A DNA stretch of 64,000 bases, taken from the NCBI RefSeq assembly GCF_021462415.1, contig NZ_JAKEDS010000001.1, positions 1,584,273 to 1,648,272 on the forward strand. The letters run 5' to 3'. Under the pieces are notes generated by a model that made no database searches, had not been told where the DNA came from, and saw only the letters and a program-made list of their open reading frames with translations. Made by a program: the position numbers and the translations under genes. Below, in pieces: positions 46,089 through 48,515 of this stretch (position 1 is the stretch's first letter; each line of letters opens with the position of its first letter). This stretch comes from Rhodohalobacter sp. 614A. GTDB taxonomy: Bacteria > Bacteroidota > Rhodothermia > Balneolales > Balneolaceae.

Positions 46089-48515
46089 ATGCCAAAAACC
46101 TACGTTGATATCGCATTTCCAACGGCCGTTCGCCGATTGTTTACCTATCATATTTCTGATTCTCAGAACATTCAGCCGGGCATGAGGGTTTGGGTTCCTC
46201 TGCGAAAGGAATTTGCAATCGGGATGGCTGTGCAGGTTCACACTCGAAAACCGGATTTTAAAACCAAATGTGTTGAACAGGTTTTGGATGAAGAACCAAT
46301 CATGGATCAAACCATACTTCAATTGACAGAGTGGATTCATCGGTTTTACTATTGCAGTTGGGGCGAGGCCATTCAGGCGGCACTTCCGGTTGGGCTGAAT
46401 TTTACGTCGGAGAAAAAATTGAGGGTAAAGAAAACGGATCGCGATTCACTTACTCAAAAAGAGAGAGAACTTCTTGGGGATTTGGAATCCGGGGATTACA
46501 CATTACAAAATGCCCGAAAACGATGGCGAGACGGATCAGAAAAAAAAATCCTGAAAAAAATCATCAAACTGGGTTGGGTGGAAGTGTGGGAGCAACCCCG
46601 GCAGCGGGTGGATTATAAAACGGCAAAACACTGGCGGATTTCGGATTCCATCCATCCGGAGGAAATTTTGGACGAACTTTCTGAAAAAGAACAGGCCAAA
46701 AAATGGGTGCAGGCGTTTGAAGAACTCTCGAAACTGGATCTGCCAAAAACTCATCAGGAGCTTTTGAGCGACGAACTTTTTACGTCTTATACGCTGAATC
46801 GAATTGAAGAAGAGGGCTGGATTGAATCCGTTGACCTGCCGGTTGAGACGGAATCAAACCACAACGGGATTCATGAACCAAATAAAATCAAAACGCTATC
46901 AGAACAGCAGGGGGTTACTTTTGAAGAAATCAAACAACCTCTTGATGCTCGTGAATTCAAAAGTTTTTTGCTTTATGGCGTGACAGGATCAGGAAAAACA
47001 GAAGTGTACATTCATGCTCTGAAACATGCTTTGGATCAGGACAGGGGCGGGTTGGTCTTAGTGCCGGAAATTGCACTCACGCCTCAAACAGTTCAGCGAT
47101 TTTTCCAGATTTTTGGGGATCAGATTGCCGTCCTTCATAGTCGTTTGAGTGATCGCGAACGTTTTGAAGCGTGGCAAAGCCTGAAATCCGGGGAGAAGCG
47201 AATTGCCATTGGCCCGCGTTCGGCAGTGTTTGCCCCGGTACAGAATATCGGTTTGATTGTTGTGGATGAGGAGCACGATACCTCCTACAAACAGTTTGAT
47301 CCATCGCCACGATATCACGCACGGGATGTGGCGGTCATGCGGGCCAGTATGGAAAATGCAGTTGTAGTTTTAGGTTCGGCTACACCAGGAATGGTTTCTG
47401 TGAAAGCGGTGATGGAGAAAAAACATGAGATGTTGCAATTGCCACTGCGGCCAACCGGGACCATGCCCGAAGTAAAAATTCTGAATCTCCTGGAATACAA
47501 ACACGCGATGAAAGGTTCGCTAACGGCCGAACTTCACCTGGAAATCGAGAAAGCACTGGATAGAAAAGAACAGGTCATTTTGCTCTATAACCGGCGCGGA
47601 TATTCTTCTTATTTGCAATGCGAAGACTGCGGGCACATCCCGCAAAGTCCGCACAGTTCAACCAGTCTGACATATCACAAAAAGAAAAATATTCTGCTGT
47701 GTCATTATAGCGGCTATTCGCGTCGTGCCGATACGCATTGTGAAAAATGCGGATCAGAAAATTTGGTAATGAAAGGCAGTGGAACTCAAAAAGTAGAAGA
47801 AGAGATGAAGGACTTATTTCCAGACGCTCGATTGCTGCGGATGGATCGCGATACGACATCAGGGAAGTTTGGGCATCAGAAAATTTATGAGAAATTCCTG
47901 AATGGCGAAGCTGATATTCTGATCGGCACCCAGCTCGTAGCAAAAGGCCTCGACTTTCCGAATGTGACGGTTGTAGGAGTTATAAATGCTGATACTGAAT
48001 TGGCCTTTCCCTCATTTCGTGCGGGCGAGCGAATGTTCCAATTGTTGAGCCAGGTAGCAGGACGTGCAGGTCGGGCTGAGAAACCGGGCGTGGTTTATGT
48101 ACAAACCTGGAAACCGGATCATCCTGCTATCGAGTGTGCGCGAACACACGATTTTAAAACATTTGCCAAATATGAACTGGCTGACCGCGAAATGCTGGAA
48201 TTTCCACCTTACTCAAGAATGATTGTATTCCAGTTTAAGGCAAAGAGTTTATCGAAAGTGCAATTGGTGGCAAATCGTTTTTGTGATGCCATGAGAAAAG
48301 TAACGGGTGAGGCTTCCGTTATGGGACCGTCACCGTCGGTGATTGAATGGATGAACGGGCAGTATCAATGGGAGGCGAATATTAAGCTGAAGCGGACGTA
48401 TAATGCGCATGTGATCGAAAAATTATTGGATAGTATTTTTGAGCAGTACGAATCTATGAAGCCAAAAGGAGCGTCATCGGTGAGAATAAATGTAGATGTG
48501 GATGCGGTGGAATAA
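46089..48515 (+). CDS. priA: Primosomal replication-restart helicase PriA
   Basis: An 808-residue 3'-5' DNA helicase that restarts stalled forks. The N-terminal DNA-binding part has VDIAFPTAVRRLFTYH and WVPLRKEFAIGMAV. The helicase core has Walker A LYGVTGSGKTEVYIH, DEEHDTSYKQ, GSATPG, and motif V/VI VAKGLDFPNVTVV and QVAGRAGRAE. The zinc module (511-554) keeps the exact spacing of eight metal-site positions. But only C511, C514, C538, C551 and C554 are cysteine; 520, 523 and 541 are serine. One site (first and last pairs) can be intact, while the second cannot be a four-cysteine site. It diverges from the DUF3311/symporter pair. Confidence 0.95.
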   Translation: MPKTYVDIAFPTAVRRLFTYHISDSQNIQPGMRVWVPLRKEFAIGMAVQVHTRKPDFKTKCVEQVLDEEPIMDQTILQLTEWIHRFYYCSWGEAIQAALPVGLNFTSEKKLRVKKTDRDSLTQKERELLGDLESGDYTLQNARKRWRDGSEKKILKKIIKLGWVEVWEQPRQRVDYKTAKHWRISDSIHPEEILDELSEKEQAKKWVQAFEELSKLDLPKTHQELLSDELFTSYTLNRIEEEGWIESVDLPVETESNHNGIHEPNKIKTLSEQQGVTFEEIKQPLDAREFKSFLLYGVTGSGKTEVYIHALKHALDQDRGGLVLVPEIALTPQTVQRFFQIFGDQIAVLHSRLSDRERFEAWQSLKSGEKRIAIGPRSAVFAPVQNIGLIVVDEEHDTSYKQFDPSPRYHARDVAVMRASMENAVVVLGSATPGMVSVKAVMEKKHEMLQLPLRPTGTMPEVKILNLLEYKHAMKGSLTAELHLEIEKALDRKEQVILLYNRRGYSSYLQCEDCGHIPQSPHSSTSLTYHKKKNILLCHYSGYSRRADTHCEKCGSENLVMKGSGTQKVEEEMKDLFPDARLLRMDRDTTSGKFGHQKIYEKFLNGEADILIGTQLVAKGLDFPNVTVVGVINADTELAFPSFRAGERMFQLLSQVAGRAGRAEKPGVVYVQTWKPDHPAIECARTHDFKTFAKYELADREMLEFPPYSRMIVFQFKAKSLSKVQLVANRFCDAMRKVTGEASVMGPSPSVIEWMNGQYQWEANIKLKRTYNAHVIEKLLDSIFEQYESMKPKGASSVRINVDVDAVE

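Follow-up and report, generated by a model that had tools for sequence, protein, structure and literature searches.

In the known structures of PriA, the replication restart helicase, the zinc ligands of the cysteine-rich region (CRR) are paired outer with outer and inner with inner. From the E. coli sequence we take the inner site to bracket a beta-hairpin and the PriB contacts to adjoin the outer site, with Asp438 lying between the first two cysteines and residues 481 to 483 after the last. The E. coli CRR contains a hairpin that is needed for unwinding, lines the single-strand pore in part, and contacts PriB through Asp438, Ser481, Thr482 and His483 (PMC10175261). Cys-to-Gly mutants of E. 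coli PriA are helicase-deficient, according to the title of Zavitz and Marians 1993 as cited in PMC7290993. Here we describe a PriA of Rhodohalobacter sp. 614A (Balneolaceae), encoded in a stretch of 64,000 nucleotides (the window), in which most of the inner site has been lost. In the literature searched, which is a part of the whole, no description of this zinc-site loss was found.

The PriA gene of the window and its metal positions

The product of the complete gene exceeds the equivalog threshold of TIGR00595 (replication restart helicase; 580.2 bits against a cut-off of 230.35) and the cut-offs of Pfam PriA_3primeBD (PF17764), DEAD (PF00270), Helicase_C (PF00271) and PriA_C (PF18074). The closest solved structures found by Foldseek are those of E. 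coli and Klebsiella PriA (8fak, 4nl4, 6dgd), the TM-score of the model against 8fak being 0.90 when normalised by target, and the helicase motif residues (Walker A K303/T304; D393, E394, H396) are invariant in a 40-sequence alignment that includes the window protein. Judged by orthology, this is a PriA in variant form; the family assignment rests on the whole protein, the eight cysteines being merely typical. The window genome gave one full-length PriA match and three weak ones, and no second, zinc-binding (C+) copy was seen among the matches listed for it. The features are as follows; the S-clade comprises the Balneolaceae with Ser or Thr at position 541.

46089..48515, + strand: priA, complete gene, 808 aa, ATG start (ORF list, Pfam, TIGR00595, AlphaFold, Foldseek)
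46089..48515, + strand: PriA domains present, namely 3'BD, helicase domains, CRR and C-terminal domain
47619..47750, + strand: CRR metal module, residues 511-554, CxxC-x5-SxxS-x14-CxxS-x9-CxxC
47619..47630, + strand: C511 and C514, Zn1 ligands, outer pair intact; Cys in all Balneolaceae and outgroup sequences read
47646..47648, + strand: S520 (AGT), canonical Zn2 ligand position; of 58 S541 tree rows 56 have Ser, and all eight-Cys rows have Cys
47655..47657, + strand: S523 (AGT), canonical Zn2 ligand position; at least four changes on the tree
47670..47699, + strand: beta-hairpin of strands 528-530 and 535-537, flanked by the lost ligand positions; folded in the AlphaFold model, taken to correspond to the E. 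coli wedge hairpin (PMC10175261)
47697..47699, + strand: L537; Arg in 28 of 28 eight-Cys Balneolales compared, Leu, Met or Ile in 55 of 55 S-clade rows
47700..47702, + strand: C538 (TGT), last remaining Zn2 cysteine of the window PriA; Asp in many relatives, at least six changes, eight losses if never regained
47709..47711, + strand: S541 (AGC), canonical Zn2 ligand position; Ser or Thr across the whole S-clade
47721..47732, + strand: stretch with R545 and D548, which all 55 S-clade rows share; eight-Cys relatives varied at 545, mostly Pro at 548
47739..47750, + strand: C551 and C554, Zn1 ligands, outer pair intact; sole exception at 551 is L099, of a different family

Positions 511, 514, 520, 523, 538, 541, 551 and 554 read C C S S C S C C at the canonical spacing, the codons being TGC TGC AGT AGT TGT AGC TGT TGC in that order, with the first at 47619-47621 and the last at 47748-47750. 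Instead of two four-cysteine sites, the protein has the outer four cysteines and Ser at three of the inner four positions. The codon readout confirmed what the sequence-only reading had described, i.e., exact spacing with Ser at 520, 523 and 541, AGT/AGC codons each one T-to-A change away from Cys, and intact first and last cysteine pairs. At 551 the alignment of L099, which comes from outside the Balneolaceae, looks shifted. The Zn_ribbon_PriA model (PF18319) gives the window protein 23.4 bits, under the gathering threshold of 26 bits, and its scores drop with each lost ligand: 51.6 (L024) and 44.1 for proteins with eight Cys, 35.3 and 31.8 with two inner Cys, and no match in the Pfam search for L007 and L042, which have no inner Cys.

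Distribution and history of the inner ligands

PriA was searched for in 92 Balneolaceae genomes and in a draw of 392 across the phylum, and sequences were taken from most of the Balneolaceae, with a sampling of other families, of other classes and of further members of the phylum. All four inner positions are Cys in each of the 90 PriA sequences read from outside the Balneolaceae; against this background the Ser residues of the window protein go far beyond what chance would give. Within the family, all eight Cys are present in 15 tree rows (genus g3 together with G035, G038 and G074) and C541 is lost in 58; in 56 of the latter C520 is lost too, giving S520 with S/T541, and in the two rows of genus g20 C541 is lost alone. 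When 55 of these S520 rows of the S-clade were compared column by column, S523 was found in 24 and Asp538 in 19, with C523 retained in 31. No inner Cys is left in 17 Balneolaceae rows, and the family presents a series that begins at eight Cys, passes S520/S541 and then S520/S523/S541, and ends at zero inner Cys. Loss of C511, C514, C551 or C554 was seen in no Balneolaceae sequence read. At the level of sequence these data agree with the established outer/outer, inner/inner ligand pairing, since erosion affects the inner four and in no case the outer four.

The exact state of the window protein recurs in Rhodohalobacter sulfatireducens (L002/L074) and in L003, at 86-87% protein identity. Its presence in two other genomes excludes a sequencing error and, together with the open frame and strong purifying selection, rules out a pseudogene. 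This alignment of Balneolaceae and Bacteroidota PriA is the comparison that the sequence-only reading had called for; Cys is not universal among the close relatives, which share or extend the losses, and the claim that the inner site is lost with the outer one kept is borne out.

PriA matches were merely weak in G051, G056, G059, G062, G063, G066 and G079. A contig ends just inside the PriA start in G056 and near the neighbouring gene in G051 and G062, and because contigs end at or near PriA its absence from these three genomes is likely to be missing assembly. One in-frame TAA is present in each of two further matches (G343:C56:6365-8770 and G319:C54:29033-31480). One MAG with 9% contamination (G045) contains two different PriA genes (L014 and L065) and is probably a mixed bin.

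A PriA tree was built without the CRR columns, followed by topology tests. The free tree divides the S-form into two Balneolaceae groups, as separate origins would; yet a constraint placing all S541 rows in one clade was not rejected (p-AU 0.53) and scores a slightly higher likelihood, and for these reasons a single origin of the C541 loss is preferred. On the tree constrained to the S541 clade there is one loss of C541, two changes of C520 (a loss and a regain, or three losses if it was never regained), at least four changes of C523, and at least six changes of C538 to Asp (eight if Cys was never regained). Read on this tree, the inner (second) zinc site was worn away in steps, and the outer site remained unchanged. 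One matched event of three changes is ruled out, as the changes sit on different branches. The three matching changes on which the earlier reading had laid weight are indeed present as three Ser in the window protein, but the loss of C541, and of C520 in all but two rows, is common to the S-clade; the notion of a single set of changes has to be given up, C523S having followed later in several lines and C538 having turned to Asp repeatedly in sister lines.

The small-genome genus g20 (G089 and G090; L164 and L165) has C520, C523 and C538 together with S541, seven Cys in all, and forms a long branch within the S-clade. Its placement outside the S-clade, as a surviving intermediate, was rejected (p-AU 0.003). 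Given the position inside, the C520 of g20 looks like a regain, or else C520 was lost in parallel in other lines.

At position 538 Asp is the sole replacement in the S-clade rows read, and since it also requires two base changes (TGY to GAY) its recurrence is notable; the window protein, like its two nearest relatives, keeps C538 as an orphan cysteine. Across the S-clade, position 541 is Ser by both AGY and TCN codons and Thr by ACN, so that the recurring feature is a hydroxyl residue and not one base change, which suggests that the hydroxyl is maintained while the codons shift. The distance of one T-to-A change from Cys, noted for the window, holds there but not for position 541 throughout the clade.

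Constraint on the altered module and readings of the loss

Between the window protein and its nearest relative (L002) residues 515-550 differ by 17 synonymous and 0 non-synonymous changes, with a pN/pS of 0 compared to 0.116 in the remainder of PriA. Other S-clade pairs likewise have a lower pN/pS in 515-550, except L063/L064 (0.209 against 0.153); these ratios are rough, synonymous sites being near saturation in several pairs. By this measure the altered module is under purifying selection and is not decaying. The earlier suggestion of a selected variant, as opposed to decay, is thus supported for the purifying selection acting on the module, although no advantage of the zinc loss is demonstrated. 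Residues 519, 522, 537, 545 and 548 co-vary in the S-clade with respect to the eight-Cys relatives, 522 being acidic in 52 of 55 S-clade rows, and T528, H530, H539 and Y540 remain fixed.

AlphaFold models of the window PriA and of the eight-Cys L024, made with the same 40 sequences as input, have a mean pLDDT of 86.8 and 86.4, respectively; by tens over residues 511 to 550 the values are 93, 88, 85 and 91 in the window protein and 90, 88, 84 and 90 in L024. Strands 508-511, 528-530, 535-537 and 544-546 are identical in both models. Because AlphaFold ignores metals and is inclined to reproduce the fold of the family, the same strands show only that the predicted CRR fold is independent of the Cys.

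We consider it probable, at roughly three chances in four, that this is a PriA in which the second zinc site has been replaced by non-metal contacts that hold the wedge hairpin, with function retained. The inner four cysteines bracketing the hairpin would have been dismantled in steps inside the Balneolaceae, with the hydroxyls at 520 and 541 and the hydrophobic residue in place of Arg537 substituting for the metal, helped by newly fixed charged residues (acidic 522, Arg545 and Asp548). Of the two zinc sites the first, presumably adjacent in E. coli to the PriB-docking residues, would be kept, leaving one zinc per PriA monomer instead of two; the hairpin would still be placed for strand separation and PriA would still restart forks. 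Invariant helicase motifs and selection argue for retained helicase and primosome function, and in view of the helicase-deficient E. coli Cys-to-Gly mutants retained helicase activity is not guaranteed. As to why the loss was tolerated, PriB was not found in the window genome, the one genome searched for it, and so the constraint from this partner may be absent in the window lineage. A bolder proposal is that the metal-free second CRR subdomain anchors the wedge by a new hydroxyl, charge and hydrophobic network and that the coupling of unwinding to helicase loading has changed in this lineage, in which no PriB was found; this is tentative, and we would rather expect it not to hold.

It is highly improbable that the inner site has been rebuilt and still binds metal through C538, His530/His539, Asp538 or, in the proteins that have it, C523. 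All 40 aligned sequences have H530 and H539, Asp538 arose repeatedly, C523 is kept in more than half of the S-clade rows, and C538 with the two histidines could in principle hold metal weakly in the window PriA. However, both histidines are equally invariant in the eight-Cys proteins and so are not new ligands, Arg537 has turned hydrophobic, 17 relatives are without any inner Cys, and the existence of relatives with S520/S523/D538/S541 argues against weak binding.

That all four inner ligands have gone, step by step, in parallel lines would also fit a site that is degenerating because wedge hairpin and helicase function are no longer needed, S-clade PriA then being mainly a fork-binding scaffold like the Deinococcus pseudohelicase, which is without helicase motif residues (PMC4504706); the deficiency of the E. 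coli mutants, as cited, points the same way. The odds are long against this, as the helicase motifs are invariant in the alignment, with one exception the S-clade pairs compared have less non-synonymous change in 515-550 than elsewhere in the protein, and T528, H530, H539 and Y540 stay fixed while new invariant residues have arisen.

Replacement of the second site by non-metal contacts is compatible with an unlikely cause, namely that a dispensable site was shed, along with other zinc sites, under zinc scarcity in the habitat. Zinc-free ribosomal protein variants have been discussed in such terms (PMC3087516), and the window genome encodes zinc-free (C-) ribosomal L31 (G000:C4:115687-115890; L231) and L36 (G000:C8:11581-11694; L232). 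Yet L36 was found in five eight-Cys Balneolaceae and is of the C- form in four of them, as it is in most relatives and in other families, so the L36 state does not track the PriA loss; moreover DnaG of the window genome keeps its zinc ribbon and the first zinc site of PriA is retained throughout. Judged by the sequences of L31, L36 and DnaG, the three other proteins checked, a link to zinc economy is not supported. Zinc-type L36 was present in G074 alone among the genomes read.

Comparison with known systems

The window PriA is like canonical PriA of E. coli and Klebsiella in its domains, helicase motifs, CRR spacing, outer Cys4 site and predicted fold. It differs in that the inner Cys4 site is down to one Cys (zero in sister lines), in the hydrophobic residue that replaces Arg537, and in that no PriB was found in its genome. 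In the Balneolaceae the inner ligands range naturally from four down to zero with the first zinc site fixed, and therefore the roles of the two zincs, in the wedge hairpin and in partner docking, can be separated, and one can study how a structural metal site is replaced while the fold persists. The series suggests that ordinary protein contacts can take the place of a metal site which none of the outside relatives read has lost.

The zinc-site loss is real and lineage-wide, the altered module is under selection, and this PriA variant is analogous to the C- ribosomal proteins such as S4, in which the ligands are replaced and the protein is still conserved (PMC3087516). PriA differs from these in that one of two zinc sites is affected, in a DNA helicase and stepwise within one family, and in that no C+ paralogue was seen in the window genome. 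In Deinococcus, too, one lineage departs from a PriA trait that is otherwise broadly conserved (PMC4504706); its pseudohelicase PriA has lost ATPase/helicase motif residues, whereas the S-clade PriA of the Balneolaceae keeps those and loses a structural zinc site.
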